Part shown: piece after piece, positions 3,530-34,101 of the stretch
Layout of the letters: the number at the start of each line of letters is the position of its first letter
Numbering within the stretch: position 1 is the stretch's first letter
Source of the DNA: Flavobacteriales bacterium
Lineage (GTDB): Bacteria; Bacteroidota; Bacteroidia; Flavobacteriales; CAJXXR01
Assembly: GCA_025210805.1 (NCBI GenBank)
Contig: JAOAQX010000016.1
Location: 1 to 61,757 of the forward strand
Reading direction: 5' to 3'
Length of the DNA stretch: 61,757 nt
The notes under the pieces: model-generated
The model's input: the letters and a program-made list of their open reading frames with translations, nothing else
Told to the model about the DNA's origin: nothing
The model's database searches: none
Program-made: the position numbers and the translations under genes

Positions 3530-3701
3530 CCTATAAAATATAAGCTTTTCAAACAAGAAATCAATTTCGAAATTAAATAGTATCATTTTTGAACTAATTT
3601 GCTTATCTATATTAAAATTTGATCATGAGCATTTCAATTCCCATTTTGTTTTTTTCCCAGCTTGGATGTTTTTATTTATCTTGGACTAAAAAAACTACCA
3701 A

Positions 3702-4955
3702 ATGAATATCGTTCACTATTTTCTACTTTTATTTTGCTTCCAAATACTTCAGTTGAATGCTCAAAATATTAAACAAGCTAAAGAAGATCTTAAAGTTCTT
3801 TGTTCAAAGGAAATGAACGGTAGAGGGTATTCTTTTGATGGTGTTCAAAAAGCTGAATTCTTCCTTAGTTCAAGAATTAAAAATATGGGATTGACTGTTC
3901 AAAAACATGCATTTGAACTTGATGCCAATGTGTTTGAGTCGAAAGTAAAGTTATCAATAGACGGGAAATGTCAAGTTGCAGGTAAGGATTTTATAGTAAA
4001 TGCCTCGTCTCCTTCTCTAAAAGGGAAATATTATTTAAAAAAAATTGAGATCCAACAAGGGAAATCTGAGGTCGTTCGCCAAATTCAAAAATTGAAATCA
4101 AGCGAGATTGCTATTTTCGATCAAGAAGAAATTAACAGTAGTCCTCATAAAAATGATATTCAAGAAATTCTAAGAGCATTACCTTGGGTTCAAGACATAA
4201 AACCCGCTGGAGTGATTCTCTATAATCAATCAAAGCTTACTTTTTCGAGCAGTACAAAACAAGCACTGAGACCGCTTTTTTATACCACAAAAAATATTTC
4301 TAAGAATAAAAAAGCAAAAATAAATTTACACGCTAAATTGCTTAAAGATTATCCTACCAATAATATTCTTGTAGAAATTCCAGGAAAAAATACAGACAGT
4401 ACGTACCTCATTACGGCACACTATGATCATATTGGAAACTTAGGGAAAAAAGTTTATTTCCCTGGTGCCAATGATAATGCTAGTGGTGTTGTTTTTCTAT
4501 TAAATTTAATGGAGCATTTCTCTAAAAATAAACCTAAATATTCCCTTAAATTCATTCTCTTTTCGGGAGAAGAAATCGGACTTTTAGGTTCTCATGCTTT
4601 AGTTGAAGATCAAATTATTGATTTAAACTCGGTAAAATTCTTACTTAATTTTGATATTTTCGGTACAGGAGATGAAGGCGTACAAATTGTCAATTCATCT
4701 TTATATAAAAAAGAATATCAACTATTTAAAGAAATCAATAAAGAAAAACAACTAATACCTGCTATAAAAGAAAGAGGCTATGCTTGTAATTCTGATCATT
4801 GTGCTTTTGAAAAAGAAGGAGTTAAAACATTTTTCTTTTACACCCTAGGCGGGATAAGAGCCTATCATGATATTTACGATAAATCTGAAACACTACCTCT
4901 CACGGAGTTCGAAGATTTACACAAATTAGTAGTCAGTTTTATCGAACGAAATTAA
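3702..4955 (+). CDS. M28-family zinc aminopeptidase, exported
   Basis: A 417-residue protein with a signal peptide (about residues 1-20, ending LNAQ). The C-terminal half is a peptidase M28 domain. The expected ligands of the two zinc ions are visible: H240 with D242 (AHYDH), D258 (GANDNASG), E290/E291 (SGEEIGLLG), D318 (NFDIFG) and H389 (AYHD). These proteins cleave N-terminal residues from peptides in the periplasm or outside the cell. The N-terminal 200 residues are less conserved and probably hold a PA-like or cap region. No T9SS sorting domain is seen, so a periplasmic location is more likely. Its last four bases overlap the stop of the convergent lipoprotein gene. Confidence 0.9.
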   Translation: MNIVHYFLLLFCFQILQLNAQNIKQAKEDLKVLCSKEMNGRGYSFDGVQKAEFFLSSRIKNMGLTVQKHAFELDANVFESKVKLSIDGKCQVAGKDFIVNASSPSLKGKYYLKKIEIQQGKSEVVRQIQKLKSSEIAIFDQEEINSSPHKNDIQEILRALPWVQDIKPAGVILYNQSKLTFSSSTKQALRPLFYTTKNISKNKKAKINLHAKLLKDYPTNNILVEIPGKNTDSTYLITAHYDHIGNLGKKVYFPGANDNASGVVFLLNLMEHFSKNKPKYSLKFILFSGEEIGLLGSHALVEDQIIDLNSVKFLLNFDIFGTGDEGVQIVNSSLYKKEYQLFKEINKEKQLIPAIKERGYACNSDHCAFEKEGVKTFFFYTLGGIRAYHDIYDKSETLPLTEFEDLHKLVVSFIERN

Positions 4956-5482
4956 GGGGTAAAAAATCCTTTTAATTCAGATTCCCATTCTTCAATGGTT
5001 TTTTGCTCGTATGCTTTATAAAAACTAAACCATTCTCTTGTTCCTTCGTTATAGTAAACAACTGCTTTATAAAAACCCTCGTCTAAAGAATGAACATCAA
5101 TTTTTAGATCTGTACCCTGTTCTCCCTCTTGTGATATCAAAGAATATTCCTTGATGTCTGTATCTAAATAAGAAAAACGAGAATTTTCAAACTCGATACT
5201 TTCAAACATATTCGTGGTTTCTCCAGGTAAAATAAAAACCTTTTCAATAGATACTTCAGGATTCCAAGTATAGATATTCAATTCTCCTATACTAGGATTT
5301 GGATAATACTGAGTTAAGTAACCATAATTATTAGGATTTCCTACAGTTGTATGACCATCAGATTGTTTTGGTCTTAACTCTGTTCCTGTTACCATTTTCT
5401 CTCCTTGAGAATAACTAAACTGGTCTCCACATGAAATAAGAGACCAGCTAAATAACAATATGATTAAATAGTTTTTTTTCAC
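4952..5482 (-). CDS. Lipoprotein with a T9SS sorting-domain-like beta-sandwich
   Basis: A 176-residue product whose N-terminus ends in the lipobox L-I-S-C (Cys18), so it is expected to be a lipid-anchored envelope protein. Residues about 59-155 read like a type A T9SS C-terminal domain: YPNPSIGELNIYTW, then hydrophobic strands, then L-K-I-D-V-H-S-L-D-E-G-F-Y-K-A-V-V-Y. Genuine sorting domains have YPNP ... LNI ... V-S-L-x-x-G-x-Y in the same order at the extreme C-terminus. Here about 20 residues of charged tail follow and the N-terminus is lipidated. I infer a sorting-domain fold reused as a structural module. No enzymatic motif is present. Confidence 0.75.
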   Translation of the reverse strand: MKKNYLIILLFSWSLISCGDQFSYSQGEKMVTGTELRPKQSDGHTTVGNPNNYGYLTQYYPNPSIGELNIYTWNPEVSIEKVFILPGETTNMFESIEFENSRFSYLDTDIKEYSLISQEGEQGTDLKIDVHSLDEGFYKAVVYYNEGTREWFSFYKAYEQKTIEEWESELKGFFTP

Positions 5483-5570
5483 AAATATCTTTTTATACCG
5501 TTTACGTTGTTAATTTACCTATATATTTTGTTTCTTTTTCGAAGTTTTTCGTTGTAGAACATCTCTTAAT

Positions 5571-5810: not shown

Positions 5811-7934
5811 CTTGTTTGCATCAATCAATATTTGTAAAATTTCAATAGCGGCTTTGGCAATCACTGTTCCTGGGCCAAAAACACCAGCAACACCAGCTTC
5901 ATATAAATACTCATAATCTTGCGGAGGAATCACTCCTCCTGCTATTACCATGATATCTTCTCTTCCTAGGTTTTCTAACTCCTCTATCACTTTAGGAACT
6001 AAAGTTTTATGACCTGCTGCTAAAGAAGAAACCCCCAGAATATGAACATCATTTTCAACAGCCTGTTTCGCTGCCTCTTGAGGTGTTTGAAAAAGTGGAC
6101 CTATATCTACATCAAAACCTAAATCTGCAAAAGCTGTGGAGATTACTTTGGCTCCTCTATCATGACCGTCTTGTCCCATTTTGGCAACCATAATTCTCGG
6201 TCTTCTTCCGTCAATTTCTGCAAATTCGTCACTCAATTGTAGGGCTTTTTGAAAATACTCATCTCCCTTAGCTTCTTTCATATACACACCTTTTATGGAT
6301 CTTGTTACGGCTTTAAATCTCCCAAAATGTTTCTCTAAAGCGTCTGATATTTCACCTAAACTAGCCCTTTTTCTTGCAGCATCTACAGACAATGCCAGTA
6401 GGTTCCCATCACCTGTTTTGGCAGATTCACTCAGTTTGTTTAGCGCATCTTGCACTTCTTTTTCGTTTCTTTCTGCTCTTAGTTTTGTGAGTCTTTCTAT
6501 TTGTGCAATCCTTACGGCAGTGTTATCAACTTCAAGGGTATCTATTGCCGTTTCTTTTTCAAGGCGATACGCATTTACTCCTACAATGATATCTTTACCA
6601 CTATCTATTCTTGCTTGCTTTTTGGCAGCAGCTTCTTCTATTCTCATTTTGGGGAGTCCGGTCTCAATTGCTTTAGACATCCCTCCTAGTTCTTCTATTT
6701 CTTGAATGAGTTTCCAAGCTTTATCAGCAATTTCTTTAGTCAGATTTTCTACAAAATAAGAGCCACCCCATGGATCCACCGTTCTACAAGTTTCTGTTTC
6801 TTTTTGAATAAAAATTTGAGTGTTTCTCGCTATTCTTGCCGAAAAATCTGTGGGTAATGCAATTGCCTCATCCAATGCATTGGTATGTAGTGATTGTGTT
6901 CCTCCAAAAGAGGCTGCCATGGCTTCAAATAGCGTTCTTCCTACATTGTTAAAAGGATCTTGCTCCGTAAGACTCCACCCACTTGTTTGACAATGCGTTC
7001 TAAGAGACATCGATTTAGGATTTTTTGGTTTGAATTGACTCATCAATTTTGCCCAAAGCATTCTGGCGGCACGCATTTTGGCAATTTCCATAAAATGATT
7101 CATCCCTATTGCCCAAAAGAAAGAAAGTCTTGGAGCAAAGCTATCAATATCCATTCCTGCTGCAATTCCTGTTTTTACATATTCTAAACCATCAGCAAGG
7201 GTGTAAGCCAGCTCAATATCAGCTGTTGCACCAGCCTCTTGCATGTGATATCCCGAAATAGAAATAGAATTAAATTTCGGCATATTTTGAGAAGTATATT
7301 CAAAAATATCTGCAATGATTTTCATAGAATGCTTTGGAGGATAGATATAGGTATTTCTCACCATAAACTCCTTCAAAATGTCATTCTGAATAGTACCACT
7401 GAGTTTTTCTTGAGGTACGCCTTGTTCTTCTGCCGCAACAATATAAAATGCCAAAATAGGTAAAACGGCTCCATTCATAGTCATTGAAACAGACATCTTA
7501 TCCAAAGGAATTCCATCAAAAAGAATTTTCATATCCAAAATGGAATCGATGGCTACACCTGCTTTTCCTACATCACCCACCACTCTATCGTGATCACTAT
7601 CATATCCTCTGTGTGTGGCTAAATCAAAGGCTACCGAAAGTCCTTTTTGACCTGCTGCTAGGTTTCTTTTATAAAATGCGTTGGATTCTTCTGCGGTTGA
7701 AAAACCTGCATATTGCCTAATCGTCCAAGGTCTTCTCACATACATAGTTGAATAGGGTCCTCTAAGATTTGGAGCAATTCCTGCCACAAAATCAATATGA
7801 GAAAGACCTTCTTCATCCTCTTTATCATAGGCGTTTTGATAGGTGATTTCTTCGGGACTTTCCCAAGATTCTTCCTTTTTGAAAGATTTTGATTCTTGAG
7901 TTTGATAAGGTATTTGGCTAAAATCTTTTTTCAT
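5808..7934 (-). CDS. mutB: Methylmalonyl-CoA mutase, large subunit
   Basis: The product is 708 residues with the ATG at 7934 ([11 protein letters not shown]); an open stretch upstream belongs to the end of mutA in another frame. The enzyme interconverts methylmalonyl-CoA and succinyl-CoA using adenosylcobalamin. The N-terminal TIM-barrel domain has the family segments [20 protein letters not shown] and [10 protein letters not shown]-like [13 protein letters not shown]. The C-terminal cobalamin-binding domain (about 575-708) has D-G-H-D-R-G with His near 591 as cobalt ligand, then the GG near [11 protein letters not shown]. It forms a pair with mutA seven bases upstream. Together they link propionate and branched-chain or odd-chain breakdown to the TCA cycle. 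The stop codon lies in a repeat palindrome. Confidence 0.97.
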
Positions 7935-7941
7935 TTGGCTA

Positions 7942-9270
7942 TTATTTTTCAGAATCCAATCTTTTTTGTTCGTCCTGCCAAGCAATTCGCATCGCTGGAA
8001 TATGGTAATTTGCAAAAGGAGCAAGTTCTTTTTCCAATTCTTCTTTTAATGAATCATTTGGATTTGGGTAAAGATTCGTCCCTAACAAAGGTTTTTCTTG
8101 ACACTCGTATCTTTCCACATCTTTGAGATGATGATCGGCTAGCTTGGATTTTAATTTCCCAGAATTACAATATTCTTTTAGACTTTCTTGCTCTAATTCT
8201 TGAAAAAATTGATACGCTTTCTTTTCAAGCTCCGATGTTATTGTTTCTATATAATAAGCTCCATTCCCAGCATCTGCAACTTGATGTATATTAGATTCCT
8301 CCTTGAGCATTATTTGCTGATTTCTTGAAATATGCGCTGAAAACTCATTAGGATTCTTATACACAATATCGTAAGGCATAGAAACTATTGCTTGAGCTCC
8401 ACCTAATGCCGCAGATAAAATTTCGGACCCGATTCTTAGCATATTCACATTTGGATCATACAAAGTTTTATTTCTTAAACTATTCTCGACACTAAAAAAT
8501 GTTTGAGCAGTAGTATCATACTCTTTGGCAAGAAAATGAATCATATTTCTGAATGCACGCTGTTTGGAGATTTCAAAGAAAAAGTTTCCTCCATTGGCAA
8601 GTTTTATATGCAAAGAATTGAAAACTTCTTTTCCAAATTCTTCCACATATTCTTGTATCAATGAAGCTCCAATTGCAATTTGCTCAAACATTCTTGCTCC
8701 AGAATTCTGTAAATAAGTAAGATCTATACAATAAGTAAAGTTTGCCTTTTCTACTCGTTTAATCCCCTCAAAATACGCCCCAAGATCCATTCTTCCAGAT
8801 TGAAAAAATGAAGATAAAATATCATAATCTAATCGCAATACAACCGTTTCTTTTTCTTCAGAAGAAAGACCTTGGTAAAAATCGTTTACTAAATGAAAAT
8901 TATGGGACTTTAATACGAAAGTTAAACCGATGTTTTGCACATAAACATTCTGAAAAAGCAAAGAAAAATCCACATTTGAAGCTCCTCCAAAATCTATTCT
9001 TAATCCCGAAACTCCTTTGTTTAAAAGAGATAAAATAAGTCCATTTGTATCGGCCTCATTCTGATAATGAATATTTTCAACAATTTCCCAATTCCCTAAT
9101 TCAAAATTGAGTCCATTGCTCGTTCTATCTTCTTTAGTGTATGCCGGATTTACTGATATACCTTCATCAGATTGCCAAATAAGAGTTTCCTCAAAATCAG
9201 CACCCTTGAGGTCTGTAATAATCTTCTCATGCCAGCTCTTTGCGCTTTGTTTTTCAAAAGTTTCGAACAT
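7942..9270 (-). CDS. mutA: Methylmalonyl-CoA mutase, small subunit (short form)
   Basis: A 442-residue protein starting at the ATG at 9270 ([18 protein letters not shown]); upstream in-frame codons are less likely to be translated. It has the N-terminal linker and mutase barrel of the family (for example [51 protein letters not shown]). It stops before any cobalamin-binding domain. Small subunits of the Propionibacterium type are over 600 residues; the shorter form is usual in flavobacteria as I recall. It should be a catalytically silent partner of MutB. The first 30 residues supply the subunit-contact arm. The gene is immediately upstream of mutB and divergent from the barrel gene at 9371. 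Confidence 0.9.
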
Positions 9271-20038: not shown

Positions 20039-21450
20039 TGAACAAAACCCTTCAGGTTTTAAAATATCTTGGTTTAGACTACCTTGGCTCAGCTGTGGCT
20101 TGGGGGCTGTTTTTTATTTATAGAAAGGTTTGTATAGAAAAAATGAACCTTTTGATGAGTGAATATATTTCTGATGAAAATTTCATTAAAGGTATTCTAG
20201 GGGTTTCAGGAATATGGATACTTATTTATGCACTTTTAGGAAATTATCGTCATATCTACAAGAGATCTCGTCTTATTGAGTTTGGAAAAACGATTGCACA
20301 GCATTTTGTTGGGGTTATTATTATCTTTTTTCTTTTCTTAATTGATGATCAGGTTGAAAAAACCAGTCAGTACTACTCTGCTGTTTTTATTTACTTTTTA
20401 CTTCAAACATTCTTTGTGTTTCTTTTTAGATACCTTCTTCTTAGAAGTACCAATAAAAAAATACATACAAAAAAAATAGGCTACCCTACACTTCTTGTAG
20501 GCGGTGGAGACGAAGCTGTAGATCTCTACGTTAAAATGGAAAATAACTTTCGCTCTTCAGGAAATATTTTTAAAGGCTATCTTTCTGCAAAAGAAGGAGA
20601 AGAACAAAGACTTTCAAATTATCTTCCTAATCTAGGTAATATTTCAGACCTTTTTCACGTTATCAAAGAGAAGAATATTCAAGAAGTCATTGTGGCAACT
20701 GCTGAAAAAGATCATAAAATAGCACTCAATATCATTGAAAAGCTAGAGGATACCCCCGTGGAAATTAAAACAATTCCTACGATGTATGATATCTTGAGCG
20801 GTTCTGTGAGAATGTCTTCTATGTTTGCCGTTCCTCTAATCACAATAGAAACAAAGCTCATGCCCGTATGGCAATCTGTGGTTAAAAGAATTCTTGATAT
20901 CATTATTTCAGCTTCCGTTTTACTACTTCTTTCACCTTTCTATATTTTTACAGCTATTTTAGTAAGAATGTCTTCCAAAGGACCGATCTTTTATAAACAA
21001 AAAAGAATTGGAATTCATGGAAAACCTTTTAATATCATCAAATTTAGATCCATGTATGTGGATGCCGAAGCTTGTGGACCACAACTTAGTAAAGATGATG
21101 ACCCCAGAATAACTCCTTGGGGAAAAATCATGCGAAAATATCGCATAGACGAAATGCCCCAGTTTTTCAATGTTTTAATTGGAGAAATGAGTATCGTGGG
21201 ACCTAGACCAGAAAGGGATTTCTATATCCAACAATTGGTAAAAAAAGCACCCTATTATCGTCAACTTCATCGAGTAAGACCTGGAATCACCTCTTGGGGA
21301 ATGGTGAAATTTGGCTATGCCGAAAATTTAGAAGAAATGCTTGAAAGGTTAAAATTTGACCTTATTTACATAGAAAATTTATCTTTGCTGAATGATTTTA
21401 AGGTTTTGGTCTATACCATCCTTATTGTCTTGCAAGGACGTGGAAAATAA
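20038..21450 (+). CDS. Undecaprenyl-phosphate sugar phosphotransferase (exopolysaccharide initiation)
   Basis: A 470-residue polytopic enzyme. The N-terminal half has about four membrane helices and a CoA-binding-like Rossmann region (TLLVGGGDEAVDLY, about 152-165). Another helix (RILDIIISASVLLLLSPFYIF) leads into the bacterial sugar transferase domain at about 280-470, with KQKRIGIHGKPFNIIKFRSM, D-P-R-I-T-P-W-G, R-Y/K-R-I-D-E-M-P-Q and S-I-V-G-P-R-P-E. Enzymes of this type transfer a hexose-1-phosphate to undecaprenyl phosphate at the inner membrane, starting capsule or exopolysaccharide repeat units. The start overlaps the lipoprotein stop (TAATG). Confidence 0.93.
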   Translation: MNKTLQVLKYLGLDYLGSAVAWGLFFIYRKVCIEKMNLLMSEYISDENFIKGILGVSGIWILIYALLGNYRHIYKRSRLIEFGKTIAQHFVGVIIIFFLFLIDDQVEKTSQYYSAVFIYFLLQTFFVFLFRYLLLRSTNKKIHTKKIGYPTLLVGGGDEAVDLYVKMENNFRSSGNIFKGYLSAKEGEEQRLSNYLPNLGNISDLFHVIKEKNIQEVIVATAEKDHKIALNIIEKLEDTPVEIKTIPTMYDILSGSVRMSSMFAVPLITIETKLMPVWQSVVKRILDIIISASVLLLLSPFYIFTAILVRMSSKGPIFYKQKRIGIHGKPFNIIKFRSMYVDAEACGPQLSKDDDPRITPWGKIMRKYRIDEMPQFFNVLIGEMSIVGPRPERDFYIQQLVKKAPYYRQLHRVRPGITSWGMVKFGYAENLEEMLERLKFDLIYIENLSLLNDFKVLVYTILIVLQGRGK

Positions 21451-22464: not shown

Positions 22465-24459
22465 ATGAAGATAATCTTACACCTTTTAATTATAGGTCTG
22501 TTATTTCCCTTTGCTCTCAAAGCCCAAAAAGACACTTTAGAAGTAAATTCTAAAATAGAATCTGTTGTTGTATTTCCCAATGGAGCACAGATTACGAGAA
22601 AAGCCCAAAAATTTATTCCTGCTGGTAAATCACATTTAATAATTAAAGGCTTACCCCTACAAACAAATTTAAAAACACTTCAAATTCAATTTCCAAAAGG
22701 ACTTGAACTGGTTTCCTTAACACCACAAGTTGATATTGGAAACAATTTACTGATACTCAACAAATCTAAAAAGCTGAGGGAAAAAATCGAAAATATAAAA
22801 ACCGAAATTTCCAAACAAAACAGCAAGCTAGTTGTTTTGAAAGACAAAAAGGAAGTTCTGAAGAAAAACAATAAAATTGAAACTGGTGAAAAAGGTCTGA
22901 GTTTAACTCAGCTGCAATCTATTGTAGATTATTACGAAAAACAAATAACAGGTATTGAAAATAGTAAAATCATTATTAGAGAGAAAATCAAACAACAAGA
23001 GAAAGAGATCTTTGATTTAAAACAACAACTACATACAAATACCACAAAAAAGAGCCTACAAACTTTAAATCTTATTTTAAAAGTCAATACATCTAAAGCA
23101 TTAAAAAGGCATTTTTCTTTGACTTATACAAACCCAAAAGCAGGATGGATACCTAGTTATGATTTCGTGGTGAAATCTACATTCAAACCCTTAGAAATAA
23201 AATATAAAGCTACCGTTTTTCAATCTACACAAGAAGACTGGAACAATATAAAAATGACCTTATCGACTTCTGATTTGTACAGAGACAAAAGTATCAGAAA
23301 GCTAACGCCTTGGTTATTTGAAAGAGGAAATAGTAATCATCCATTAGACAAGGAAAAAATATCTTATGGGAGTTTGAATGTAAAAGTTATTGATAGTAAA
23401 TACCAAGAACCTATTTCTAATGCAAAAGTTTCTATTTTTCATGGTTCAAAACTCGTACACCAATGTTTTACAGATAATTTAGGGAAATTCAAGGTTCATC
23501 CACTATTAGACAACAGTATTTATACCGTAAAAGTGGAATCTCATGGATACCAAACTAACTCAAAAAAGATGTATTCCAATGGGGAACTCAACTCTGTTCA
23601 GCTGAGTAAAGAAAACCATTATGCCCAAGTAAAAGCAGAAATCATTGAGAGTGAATACAAAGAAGAGTTCATGGCTGATGAAATGGAGCTAAAAGAAATT
23701 GTACCAAGTATAGATAATGGTCTGAGCGTAAGAGGTGGAAGAGGTGGCGAAGTAGTCTATTATGTGGACGGAGTAAAGGTAAATGGAAATTCTTATAATC
23801 AAGCAAAATCCACAAACACCATCTCACTCTCAGCCCTAGAACATAATGACAAAATAGAAAGTGATTTCACCTATTCATTAAAACAGAAAATGACTGTTTT
23901 AAGTAACGGAGAGGCTCATAATTTTGATTTACAAACCACCAAGGCCGTAACAGATTATGAATACATAGTAGTACCAGAGCTCAAAAAAATCGCTAACCTA
24001 CAAGTGTTATTACCCGATTGGGAAAGTTTAAGACTTCAAGATGCTCCCGTGCATTACTATTACGAAAACAGATTAGTGAATCAGGCTGATTTTGTAAATG
24101 AAAACTTCCAAGATACACTAGCCTTAGATTTCACTGAGGATAATGGAATCATTACAAGAAAGAAAAACATTAAACTACAAGAATCCAAAAAGTTCTTTAG
24201 TGGAAAAATCAAAGAATTCCGATCAATAGAATTGGAAGTAAAAAACAATAAAAATACCCCTGTTCAAATCAAATTACAAGATGTGCTTCCTATTTCAGAA
24301 TTTGAAGATATCGTGATAGAAATTGAAGAAATGACTCTGGAACCGAACGAAAAAAGCGATCAAGGAATCTATACTTGGAAATTTTTGCTACAGCCAAAAG
24401 CAAAGAAAACAATCACTTACAAATACTCTGTAAGATATCCTAAAAAAATGCTCAGGTAA
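22465..24459 (+). CDS. MuiA-like DUF4139 protein with inserted carboxypeptidase-regulatory and plug-like segments
   Basis: A 664-residue exported protein (signal peptide to about residue 20, LKAQ). Residues about 28-120 match the DUF4140 N-terminal domain (IESVVVFPNGAQITRKA, IKGLP). A coiled coil follows at about 100-190. The DUF4139 beta-rich domain opens near 210 (LTYTNPKAGWIPSYDF) and resumes near 465 to the end. The DUF4139 part is split by an insert: residues about 303-380 look like a carboxypeptidase regulatory-like domain (LNVKVIDSKYQEPISNAKVSI ... YTVKVESHGY). Residues about 420-441 (S-V-R-G-G-R-G-G-E-V-V-Y-Y-V-D-G-V-K-V) copy the hallmark of TonB-receptor plug domains. The family is named after a mucoidy inhibitor but its biochemistry is unknown. 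It is monocistronic, after a terminator. Confidence 0.85.
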   Translation: MKIILHLLIIGLLFPFALKAQKDTLEVNSKIESVVVFPNGAQITRKAQKFIPAGKSHLIIKGLPLQTNLKTLQIQFPKGLELVSLTPQVDIGNNLLILNKSKKLREKIENIKTEISKQNSKLVVLKDKKEVLKKNNKIETGEKGLSLTQLQSIVDYYEKQITGIENSKIIIREKIKQQEKEIFDLKQQLHTNTTKKSLQTLNLILKVNTSKALKRHFSLTYTNPKAGWIPSYDFVVKSTFKPLEIKYKATVFQSTQEDWNNIKMTLSTSDLYRDKSIRKLTPWLFERGNSNHPLDKEKISYGSLNVKVIDSKYQEPISNAKVSIFHGSKLVHQCFTDNLGKFKVHPLLDNSIYTVKVESHGYQTNSKKMYSNGELNSVQLSKENHYAQVKAEIIESEYKEEFMADEMELKEIVPSIDNGLSVRGGRGGEVVYYVDGVKVNGNSYNQAKSTNTISLSALEHNDKIESDFTYSLKQKMTVLSNGEAHNFDLQTTKAVTDYEYIVVPELKKIANLQVLLPDWESLRLQDAPVHYYYENRLVNQADFVNENFQDTLALDFTEDNGIITRKKNIKLQESKKFFSGKIKEFRSIELEVKNNKNTPVQIKLQDVLPISEFEDIVIEIEEMTLEPNEKSDQGIYTWKFLLQPKAKKTITYKYSVRYPKKMLR

Positions 24460-26271: not shown

Positions 26272-27318
26272 TCACTTCAACAATTCTGGAAATAATTTAA
26301 TTGCCTTCTCATACCTTGGGATAGAAACAGCCTTTACATAAGAATGATTTGGATGTTTCTTTACATAATCCTGATGATATTCCTCTGCTCGATAGAACTT
26401 CCCCTCTTTTTGGACTTCTACTGCTAGTGGCTTTGAATAATTTCCAGAATTGTTCAGTTGTTCAATCCATTTATAGATGCGCTTCTTTTGTTTTCTATTT
26501 TTGTAGAATATCATAGAACGATATTGTCTTCCCCGATCATTACCTTGTCCATTAACCTGTGTAATATCTCCCGAATGGAAATAAACACGAAGTAAATCCT
26601 CATAAGAAATTTCTTTAGGATTATAGTACACCTGAACCGCCTCTGCATGATTTGTTTTTCCTGCTCCTACTTCTTGATACGTCGGATTTGCTCTTTCGCC
26701 CCCACTATAACCTGATATCACAGCTTTCACACCTTTGATAGATTCAAAAATTTCTTCTACACACCAAAAACAACCTTGTGCAAAAACGGCGGTTTGAATA
26801 TTGGATTTCTCTACAAAATAAAGACTTTCACCGTTAATACAATAGCGTAATCCTGTGGGTTCTGGTCCATCATGAAAAACATGACCCAAATGGCCATTAC
26901 ATCTTTGACAAACAACCTCATCACGAGTCATTCCATGAGAAAAATCGGCACCTACTTCAATACTTTTTTTCGTCATCGGTTGCCAAAAACTTGGCCAACC
27001 TGAACCCGAATCAAATTTATGACGAGAAGAAAACAACGCATTATTACAAGCCGCGCAAATATAAGTACCACTACCTTTGTTATCGTTATAAGAATGTGAA
27101 AATGGTCTTTCTGTACCTTTTTTTCTTAGTATATGAAACTGGGCAGGGCTCAATTCTTTCTTCCATTGCTCTTCAGATTTGAATACGGGATTCGACCAAT
27201 CTTTGACAATTTCAATTTTCTGAGAGTTAACGGTTTCTTTCTGATGCTTCTTCACTTCTTGGGCACAGCCAACCATTACATATACAGAAGACAGCAAAAT
27301 AAGTACGATATTTTTCAT
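26272..27318 (-). CDS. msrBA: Bifunctional methionine sulfoxide reductase MsrB-MsrA, lipoprotein
   Basis: A 348-residue fusion. An N-terminal lipobox (M-V-G-C, Cys18) predicts lipid anchoring in the envelope. The MsrB domain spans about 50-172, with zinc cysteines C88, C91, C137 and C140 and the catalytic C160 in R-Y-C-I-N. It reduces methionine-R-sulfoxide. The MsrA domain spans about 175-335, with catalytic C183 in G-C-F-W-C and [16 protein letters not shown]. It reduces the S form. The order B then A is the reverse of the more common MsrA-MsrB fusion. Together they repair oxidised methionines in exported proteins. The reducing partner in the envelope is not encoded next to it. Confidence 0.95.
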
Positions 27319-31956: not shown

Positions 31957-34101
31957 ATGAAACCATTTCTTATTTTAGCATTTTTCTTTTTGTCATTTCT
32001 CGGTATTCAAGCACAACCCTATTTCGGACAAAGATTTTACCCAGATATAGAAGTAAATAATCAAGATAAATACATTCCTTGGACAGGTGGTTTAAATGCG
32101 CCCCAGTTCAATGAAATGGATCTTAACAAAGATGGAATCAAAGATCTTGTGATATTCGACAGAGCCGATAATCAAGTCATCTGTATGCTTTATAATCCAT
32201 GGAATCCAAACAGCCCATATAGTAGAAAACCTGAATTTGAAAAAAACTTTCCAAAGTTAGAAAGCTGGATGCTTACCGCAGATTTTAATAATGATGGTTT
32301 AATGGATTTGTTTACCAATTATTCAGGAAGAGTACTCTACTATCGTCAATTGGCTACAAATCCCATTACATGGTCTGATCCCGATACTTTAAGAACCAAA
32401 AGAGGTCCTACAACAACCAGTAAGCTCTTCGTTTCGGCAATTGATGTACCTGCTATTGAAGATGCCGATGCAGATGGTGATTTAGACCTCTTAACATTTG
32501 GCGTGTTAGGTACAAAGCTAGAATTCCATGAAAACATAGGAACAGCCAGTAATTATGAACTCAAACTAACAGATAGATGTTATGGAAGGTTTACAGAAAA
32601 CTTCTCAGACAATAGTGTTACCTTACATGACTGCGATGACGGAAATGCAGCCCCTCCCCTCGCCTCAAGACACTCGGGTTCTACCGTTACTATTTTTGAT
32701 ATAGATGGCGATAATGACAAAGATATGTTTCTAGGCGATGTTTCTTTTAACAATATTGTTATGCTAAAAAACACCCCAAATGCTGGTGTGGCAACCATGA
32801 CTGAACAAATTTTCACTTTTCCGAATAACAAACCTATAGATGTTCAACTTTTTCCATTAGTAAAATTCATTGACCTTGATAAAGATGGAGATCAAGATAT
32901 GCTTGTTACACCCAATAGTTCAAATAATTCTGTAACCAAAAACAGTGTTTGGCACTATAAAAATACAGGGAATGAGATCGTACCACAGTTTGATTTTCAA
33001 GAGGAAAATTACCTTCAAAAAGATATGATCGATATAGGAAAATTCTCTATTGTTAGATTATTTGATTTTGATCAAGACGGAGATAAAGACCTTTTTGTAA
33101 GCAGTGGTGAACGTTTTGATGCTTCCAAAAATTTTATTTCCTCAATATATTATTATAAAAATATAGGAAATAATATAACTCCTAAATTCAAACAGATTTC
33201 TAATGATTTTGGAGGATTTTTATCAAAAAACATTGGTTTACAACTTGCCCCAAGCTTTGGAGATCTAGATTCTGATGGGGATTTTGACATTATCATGGGA
33301 AATAAAAATGGGCAAGTCATTTATTTTGAAAATACCACTAACAATGCTGCACCCAGCTATATTTACAATAATTCACTGTTCAACTCTGTAAATGTAGGGG
33401 TTTCTTCAAAGCCTTTTCTCTATGACTTAGATGGGGATTTTGATTTAGACTTACTCGTGGGAGAAAAAGATGGGAATATCAATTATTATGAAAATACAGG
33501 AACGCAATCAAATCCACAGTTTTCACTAAACCCAGATACAAATAAATTTGGCGGTATAGATCTAGTGGACAACTTTGGAAACGGATATACAGATCCTACA
33601 ATTGTTGAGATGAATAATAAAATGCACCTTATTATTGGAACAGCAGAAAGAGGAATCCATGTTTTTGATAGTTTAGAAAACAATCTCAAAGGCAATTTTA
33701 GAAATAAAACACTTACTGAAAATCTTCAAAAGTTTGACAATAAAAGATATCTAAGTCCAACAATTGCGGATATAAACCAAGATGGGAAAATGGATATGAT
33801 TCTAGGGAATATCAAAGGCGGATTGGAGTATTTTGTTGGAATTGACAAGAATCAAATCAGTGTAGTAGAAATAGATAACCCACAAGAAGTTATCATATAT
33901 CCTAACCCTGCAAAAACTCATTTATCTATCCAGAGTAATCATTCATTTGAAAGTTTTCTGATCTATTCTATTTCAGGAAACTTGATTCAAAAAGGAAACT
34001 ATCAAAAAGAAATTTCTGTAGAAAACTTATCTCCTGGATCTTATCTCATAGAATTAAGAAACAATTCAAAAAGAGCACTTCTAAAATTTATCAAGATCTA
34101 A
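31957..34101 (+). CDS. FG-GAP/VCBS repeat surface protein with T9SS type A sorting domain
   Basis: A 714-residue exported protein (signal peptide MKPFLILAFFFLSFLGIQAQ). About nine repeats carry the calcium-loop pattern D-x-[DN]-x-D-G-x-x-D-[LIM] (for example DLNKDGIKDL, DFNNDGLMDL, DADADGDLDL, DLDKDGDQDM, DLDSDGDFDI, DINQDGKMDM). They should fold as a beta-propeller like integrin-alpha FG-GAP domains. The last about 75 residues are a type A T9SS sorting domain (IIYPNPAKTHLSIQS ... FLIYSISGNLIQKG ... NLSPGSYLIELR ... LLKFIKI). This sends the protein through the outer membrane and attaches it to the surface. A likely role is adhesion or matrix binding. The final 48 bases are exactly duplicated just after the stop. 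Confidence 0.93.
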   Translation: MKPFLILAFFFLSFLGIQAQPYFGQRFYPDIEVNNQDKYIPWTGGLNAPQFNEMDLNKDGIKDLVIFDRADNQVICMLYNPWNPNSPYSRKPEFEKNFPKLESWMLTADFNNDGLMDLFTNYSGRVLYYRQLATNPITWSDPDTLRTKRGPTTTSKLFVSAIDVPAIEDADADGDLDLLTFGVLGTKLEFHENIGTASNYELKLTDRCYGRFTENFSDNSVTLHDCDDGNAAPPLASRHSGSTVTIFDIDGDNDKDMFLGDVSFNNIVMLKNTPNAGVATMTEQIFTFPNNKPIDVQLFPLVKFIDLDKDGDQDMLVTPNSSNNSVTKNSVWHYKNTGNEIVPQFDFQEENYLQKDMIDIGKFSIVRLFDFDQDGDKDLFVSSGERFDASKNFISSIYYYKNIGNNITPKFKQISNDFGGFLSKNIGLQLAPSFGDLDSDGDFDIIMGNKNGQVIYFENTTNNAAPSYIYNNSLFNSVNVGVSSKPFLYDLDGDFDLDLLVGEKDGNINYYENTGTQSNPQFSLNPDTNKFGGIDLVDNFGNGYTDPTIVEMNNKMHLIIGTAERGIHVFDSLENNLKGNFRNKTLTENLQKFDNKRYLSPTIADINQDGKMDMILGNIKGGLEYFVGIDKNQISVVEIDNPQEVIIYPNPAKTHLSIQSNHSFESFLIYSISGNLIQKGNYQKEISVENLSPGSYLIELRNNSKRALLKFIKI

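Follow-up and report, generated by a model that had tools for sequence, protein, structure and literature searches.

Receptor-like N-terminal elements within the DUF4139 domain of a MuiA-type protein and its relatives in Bacteroidota

A MuiA-type scaffold with an interrupted DUF4139 domain

The window, by which we mean the whole stretch of 61,757 nucleotides analysed here from a Flavobacteriales bacterium, encodes on its forward strand a MuiA-family protein whose DUF4139 domain is interrupted by a long insert. Its features are as follows (NTE, the N-terminal extension of SusC-type receptors):

22465..24459, +: MuiA-family protein of 664 aa, in the order DUF4140, coiled coil, DUF4139 (ATG start; Pfam, NCBIfam, AlphaFold2)
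22564..22860, +: DUF4140, residues 34-132 (Pfam, 45.2 bits)
22744..23052, +: coiled-coil hairpin, residues 94-196 (predicted helices 94-135 and 147-196)
23116..23319, +: first half of DUF4139, residues 218-285 (Pfam and model; last strand before the insert at 259-267)
23368..23604, +: CarboxypepD_reg/NTE-like Ig domain, residues 302-380 (Pfam below cut-off, confident strands, fold match)
23623..23853, +: low-confidence, predicted disordered stretch with the plug fragment, residues 387-463 (pLDDT below 50 at 387-431 and 436-463)
23716..23841, +: plug fragment, residues 418-459 (Pfam Plug; best match in the genome's own receptor, G000:C11:72062-72154)
23860..24444, +: second half of DUF4139, residues 466-660 (Pfam, phylum DUF4139 search, model)

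The protein matches the NCBIfam model TIGR02231 (MuiA family) with 198.7 bits, which passes the curated cut-off of 112.6, and is the sole DUF4139 match in its genome. Residues 1-21 are hydrophobic and, judged by eye, resemble a type I signal peptide. DUF4139 itself is recognized as a single interrupted Pfam match (residues 218-660, 146.5 bits). The preliminary description of this locus put about 160 residues between its halves, a fair estimate; by the present alignment boundaries the gap measures 185 residues (279-463), compared with a median of 55 in relatives without receptor pieces. An AlphaFold2 model built from 85 aligned sequences (mean pLDDT 84.5) is mostly confident in the MuiA core. 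Searching solved structures by sequence with the window protein gave only chance-level matches (best E 0.033), and in a fold search with the model the matches listed concern the NTE part and the coiled coil, none the DUF4140/DUF4139 core. The window protein thus shares the entire DUF4140-DUF4139 scaffold with the MuiA family and differs from it by the cassette of receptor origin that its DUF4139 loop holds. In P. aeruginosa, MuiA has been described as an SbrI target with ties to swarming, biofilm, and envelope stress, and the accessible text of the respective reports describes no receptor parts in it (PMC10418997, PMC7603352).

An aminotransferase gene lies next to the DUF4139 gene. Open reading frames similar to the neighbours of the window gene were found in none of the 13 other stretches compared, two of which hold VWA and alpha-2-macroglobulin proteins, not DUF4139. 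No close orthologue was found; the only genome of the same family (G001, 83% complete) was matched just through the plug box of a receptor. Elsewhere in the window, the listed start of a 3-hydroxyacyl-CoA dehydrogenase frame overlaps the end of a sugar transferase frame (21392-21450), a later start being likely; the reverse-strand frame at 26272-27318 encodes what we take, from motifs recognized by eye, to be a fused methionine sulfoxide reductase; and the protein of the forward-strand frame at 31957-34101 has FG-GAP repeats and, at its C-terminus, a T9SS sorting domain (Por_Secre_tail, 42.4 bits), which together with the SusC-type receptors of the genome points to the Bacteroidota.

The insert: an NTE-like domain followed by a plug fragment

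A carboxypeptidase-regulatory-like segment had been noted in the insert from the sequence, and it is indeed present: a CarboxypepD_reg/NTE-like domain is confidently predicted at residues 302-380. The corresponding Pfam models stay below their cut-offs (CarboxypepD_reg, PF13620, at 304-368 with 31.6 bits against 32.3; PF13715 with 26.4 bits against 32.2), and the predicted model gives this region a confident seven-strand Ig-like fold, with blocks of 301-380 at pLDDT 85-97. In a Foldseek ranking of PDB chains, the segment 300-387 superposes on the NTEs of SusC(dex) (9hfj; Z 12.0, rmsd 2.3, 80 residues aligned) and of BT1763 (6ytc; Z 10.0, rmsd 5.0, 86 aligned). These NTE matches rank level with further domains of the CarboxypepD_reg and CnaB types, a spore lytic transglycosylase coming first (Z 12.8), and the fold does not single out receptors. 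The receptor assignment of this part is decided by the accompanying elements, the fold by itself being insufficient.

The second element is a fragment of 42 residues that contains the peptide RGGRGGEVVYYVDGV (residues 423-437). Pfam Plug aligns to residues 418-459 with model positions 46-86 of 107 at 16.5 bits (cut-off 23.9, E 0.012), which means that about 40% of the model (about 41 of 107 positions) is present and that Pfam does not recognize a complete plug domain. Of the 20 Plug matches at E ≤0.01 in the genome, that of the window protein is the weakest (E 0.0044). Neither Pfam nor NCBIfam detects a beta-barrel family in the protein, whose remainder is DUF4140/DUF4139, in line with the barrel-less architecture first described. 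The idea that the insert could be a disordered linker applies to one half of it: the plug part (387-463) is predicted mostly at pLDDT below 50, in contrast to the confidently folded NTE part.

The peptide had been read as the plug signature of SusC/TonB receptors. Its assignment to a TonB-dependent receptor plug stands; its assignment to SusC does not, the fragment belonging with another class of CarboxypepD_reg receptors. Residues 407-461 were compared with samples of the order (296 genomes) and of the class (395 genomes); apart from the protein itself, the best match in both was a 1237-aa TonB-dependent receptor of the same genome (36.6 bits, compared with 29.3 and 30.1 bits for the next-best matches in the order and class samples, respectively). 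The two sequences are 65% identical over 31 aa (E 1.4e-8 within that genome). In these two comparisons, most of the matching frames are about 1190-1300 aa long and share this type of plug box, which is not that of SusC. The own receptor (L116, G000:C11:68500-73500, about 1240 aa) is laid out as NTE, MDEVELV, and plug; receptors of this kind, with a strongly conserved plug box, recur in many genomes of the order and class. At the DNA level, 48 of 60 bases are identical between fragment and receptor. Recent copying or gene conversion from this receptor was considered and rejected, the third base being the same in nine of 17 identical codons with 7.2 expected (P 0.24). A general preference of such inserts for the receptor of their own genome was likewise discarded, as none was found in genus g24 or for L092.

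Judged by sequence, the resemblance of the plug fragment to receptors exceeds chance, because the E value against the own receptor is 1.4e-8 and unmistakable plugs occupy the same loop of relatives. We regard it as established, or nearly so, that the insert combines, in receptor order, an Ig domain of NTE type with a TonB-dependent receptor plug fragment, and a receptor origin of the insert is almost certain. Compared with the N-terminus of CarboxypepD_reg receptors such as SusC, with which it shares the NTE fold and the NTE-then-plug order, the insert lacks a barrel and a Ton box, has only a partial plug, and is lodged inside another domain. The best candidate Ton-box site in the window protein reaches 8.2 bits (p 0.083 with a matrix from 33 receptors) and is not significant.

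Receptor elements in the loops of relatives

DUF4139 matches were found in 108 of the 296 genomes of a phylum draw. We read 88 distinct proteins, of which 72 correspond to strong rows of this draw (E ≤2.3e-36, window protein included; the 43 weaker rows at E ≥4.2e-11 were left out) and 14 and two came from other searches; the receptors L016 and L028, a partial second reading in L004, and duplicates recognized by identical C-termini were dropped. Elements were called with local NTE and plug models and a Ton-box matrix built from 33 receptors. The plug model favours the window protein, because the training receptors included L116, and one protein (L008, E 0.004) was removed from the plug class by hand.

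The architecture, for which the preliminary description had proposed a search, recurs widely. At least one receptor N-terminal element lies in the same loop in 49 of the 88 proteins, or 38 of 72 in the phylum draw alone, with NTE called in 33 loops, a Ton box in 34, and a plug piece in 14. The combinations vary: NTE with Ton box (21 loops), Ton box (9), plug (6), NTE (5), NTE with plug (4, among them the window protein), all three (3), and Ton box with plug (1). The remaining 39 loops have no detectable element, so the core function needs none. Loop length ranges from 36 to 321 residues overall; loops without elements span 36-79 residues (median 55), and where an NTE is present the median rises to 157. 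It is established or nearly so, by sequence comparison, that many relatives across the phylum have varied combinations of NTE, Ton box, and plug pieces in the same loop. This recurrence of receptor pieces at one site also explains why barrel-less proteins can score as TonB plugs.

Curated models agree with these calls. Among 85 homologues scanned, all of which match the TIGR02231 MuiA model, Pfam finds CarbopepD_reg_2 in 33, CarboxypepD_reg in 32, and Plug in nine (the window protein is not among the nine at E 0.01), and NCBIfam finds the SusC model TIGR04056 in 30 and the SusC signature TIGR04057 in seven. The other families with more than two members, among the 25 of 38 Pfam families listed, are CooC_C (6), EMC7 (5), CILP (5), PEGA (3), and DUF7927 (3), most of which model beta-sandwich domains like the NTE. 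Plug scores in the same loop reach 72.1 bits in L049 (positions 4-107 of 107), 61.3 bits in L092 (20-107), and 60.3 bits in L032, a Paludibacteraceae relative. One DUF4139 member matched the BamP model weakly (E 0.0045). Tandem DUF4139 genes occur at L160:5177-7102 and 7125-9197 on the reverse strand (G041) and at L032:1198-3618 and 3608-5500 on the forward strand; their loops differ in receptor pieces, with NTE and plug beside NTE alone.

In BT1763, the Ton box VDEVVV (residues 81-86) follows straight after the NTE, and growth on levan is impaired by deletion of the Ton box, by its all-alanine mutation, or by deletion of the NTE, which the authors propose to confer specificity among TonBs (PMC7782687); a second report places the Ton box at D82-G88 (PMC7618045). 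Motifs of the LDEVVVTGYG type with at least 12 bits occur in 34 of the 88 loops against 0.33 expected (300 shuffles each), compared with 1/88 in the N-terminal and 1/88 in the C-terminal parts of the same proteins.

One variant is shared by six genera (G276, G592, G568, G571, G582, and G185; the G568 copy ends at a contig end), whose common DUF4139 protein carries NTE, Ton box, and plug pieces with pairwise identities of 45-65% in the NTE, 38-58% from Ton box to plug, and 43-66% in the core. Pfam Plug, run on four of these proteins, scored the G276 copy at 61.3 bits, the G592 copy at 44.5, and the G185 copy at 34.4; in G571 it found no match at E 0.01, and the plug piece rests on the alignment. 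A model of the G276 protein, based on 43 aligned sequences that include eight receptor N-termini, is confident for the NTE (311-380) and for a part of the plug (441-490; pLDDT 81-89) and not confident for residues 389-435, Ton box included. Unlike in the window protein, the plug part is therefore predicted to fold without a barrel. The L092 model (as L158) superposes on 9hfj with Z 12.9 and 38% identity over 79 residues, with no plug chain among the matches listed in its structure searches. Its NTE part also matches chain E of PDB 9n2d, an F. johnsoniae BAM complex (Z 8.3, 79 aligned, rmsd 3.6); the term NTE is absent from the main text of the accompanying paper (PMC12611786).

A literature search on DUF4139, on MuiA, and on plug-domain combinations, with subscription journals and preprints outside its reach, showed no description of such an architecture among the papers listed. 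The parts are known; their combination and its recurrence are undescribed in the literature searched.

Docking, decay, and other readings of the loop

Our tentative preference, somewhat short of an even chance, is that an envelope protein of MuiA type carries, in an interdomain loop permissive for insertions, a receptor-derived N-terminal cassette that docks to partners of the TonB system. The loop would thereby recruit the protein to TonB or to another of the periplasmic partners that receptor N-termini engage. Relatives bearing a Ton box could bind TonB directly and perhaps receive force, and NTE-mediated docking would be the only kind left to the window copy, whose plug fragment would be a short linear element or a remnant, not a working plug. 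A function of that fragment in the window protein is improbable; that the loop serves docking to TonB-system partners in the family at large is possible, with the balance still tilted against it. The pattern suggests a connection between MuiA-type proteins and the machinery that powers receptors, and we infer each step from the possession of these parts to the binding of TonB.

A partial precedent is PorE, a lipoprotein of CpoB-TolB-CP-Pal layout, which is likewise a non-receptor envelope protein with a CP/NTE-type domain; because this NTE-like domain is implicated in TonB interaction, TonB-like force transfer to PorE has been suggested (PMC12204202). Its scaffold differs from that of the window protein, and no Ton box or plug is described for it in the accessible text of that report (PMC12204202). 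By this parallel, docking would be the most economical functional reading, which for the window protein would depend on the NTE. Docking to TonB-dependent machinery, as proposed in the preliminary description, is plausible at the level of the family, given the 34 of 88 loops with a motif whose deletion or mutation impairs BT1763. Against it, the window protein has no significant Ton box and less than half a plug, a part that is predicted to be disordered. If the loop does bind TonB, the Ton system would have non-transporter clients, the role of the NTE could be approached outside a receptor, and there would be a first handle on MuiA/DUF4139 proteins in the phylum.

The main alternative, somewhat less likely in our estimation, is that a captured receptor N-terminus has been eroding lineage by lineage in a permissive loop without present function, leaving the window fragment as debris. 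The varied loop lengths and element sets fit this reading, as does the predicted disorder of the window's plug part. So do the changes on a quick tree of the protein core (loop excluded), which are at least 12 for NTE, 15 for the Ton box, and 12 for plug pieces (4, 8, and 7, respectively, forced by well-supported branches), counts that cannot separate gain from loss; long branches, the window's included, make placement on this tree unsure. On the same tree, however, clustering is seen for NTE and Ton box, whose counts no label shuffle out of 500 reached, and not for plug pieces, whose count was matched or undercut in 86 of 500. Erosion would also be expected to yield the pattern seen in two DUF4139 proteins of G058 and G428 (L165 and L166, 530 and 532 aa; 91% identical, core dN 0.012, dS 0.34): one loop retains a piece of the RG box and the other RDITSTAGQAAGV just upstream, and the two pieces are adjacent in the G058 receptor. 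Even if the pieces are relics, one site that repeatedly bears pieces of one gene family would be unusual domain evolution.

Substitution patterns speak on both sides. In five close pairs with an NTE, three of them from one trio, omega is 0.11-0.27 in the NTE, 0.06-0.09 in the core, and 0.19-0.94 in the tail after the Ton box. NTE codons are thus under purifying selection in these pairs, which runs against decay; the upper tail values are compatible with it, as is whole-loop omega in three of five short-loop pairs (0.48, 0.18, 0.07, 0.42, and 0.45). On the other hand, NTE values are 1.6 to 4.3 times those of the core, and constraint is not elevated in the ten codons of the Ton box (omega 0.21, 0.34, and 0.69 where computable, with few changes), both of which weigh against docking. 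Receptor-like peptides in relatives are 64-81% identical to receptors with third positions near random. For example, the loop peptide STKSTKVVTAEDIQNMAVRDITTVGG of a second G058 protein (L006, G058:C1:3673928-3677995) is identical to its own receptor at 21 of 26 residues, and nine of 21 third positions are shared with 9.0 expected from random codon use. Recent copying into L006 was not supported, none of seven receptors compared exceeding expectation at P <0.05 (lowest 0.065). We simulated neutral relics for all six pairs tried, with 1500 draws at each of 11 times; the largest probability was 0 for L006, 0.0007 for L167 and L168, 0.0067 for L166, 0.017 for L165, and 0.020 for the window protein, the last two values being weak because the stretches had been hand-picked for a good match. 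The retention of receptor-like peptides despite randomized synonymous sites argues against pure decay in several relatives and only weakly so for the window protein. The preservation of all three elements in six genera and the frequency of the Ton box are likewise difficult to reconcile with erosion.

It is unlikely that the NTE-like domain has no connection to TonB and is a generic module of Ig type that binds carbohydrate, peptidoglycan, or protein, the plug fragment having come along with it. Carboxypeptidases, pilins, and others share the fold at similar Z, and five of the 28 CarbopepD_reg_2 matches in the genome fall in frames 247-538 aa long, which is short by receptor standards; against such a module, the NTE co-occurs with Ton box and plug pieces in receptor order. 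Plug mimicry is very unlikely, whether the insert were to enter or block the barrel of a receptor or, as envisaged in the preliminary description, to mimic the plug of a receptor and so regulate it. This reading could draw on the best match to the genome's own receptor and on the fuller plugs of L049 and L092, the latter partly folded in prediction, but in genus g24 the own receptor is no better a match than those of sister species, and the L092 insert resembles orthologous inserts more closely than any receptor. For the window protein the proposal found no support, because it has no significant Ton box and too little plug, disordered in prediction, to fill a barrel. Finally, a chance likeness of a glycine-rich loop to the plug box, for which the sub-threshold Pfam score might be cited, is negligible given the E value of 1.4e-8 and the significant plugs in homologous loops.

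To return to docking, the cassette of NTE, Ton box, and plug is not confined to DUF4139 at the sequence level. On a wider version, which we consider unlikely, this phylum would have a whole class of envelope proteins that lack a barrel and are addressed by TonB: a portable cassette grafted onto unrelated periplasmic scaffolds (MuiA/DUF4139, VWA-YfbK, and alpha-2-macroglobulin) would let TonB recruit or pull non-receptors, and some members, the window protein among them, would keep only a specificity domain and a short plug peptide. A VWA/YfbK protein (L156:1794-3887, forward strand, G276) and an alpha-2-macroglobulin protein (L157:1-4848, reverse strand, G567) each carry CarbopepD_reg_2, the Ton box LDEVVV, and a Plug match (31.0 and 32.3 bits, respectively) without a barrel. 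Like the window protein, both are barrel-less scaffolds with receptor pieces; the scaffolds are unrelated to it, and the cassette lies at the N-terminus in L156 and mid-protein in L157.
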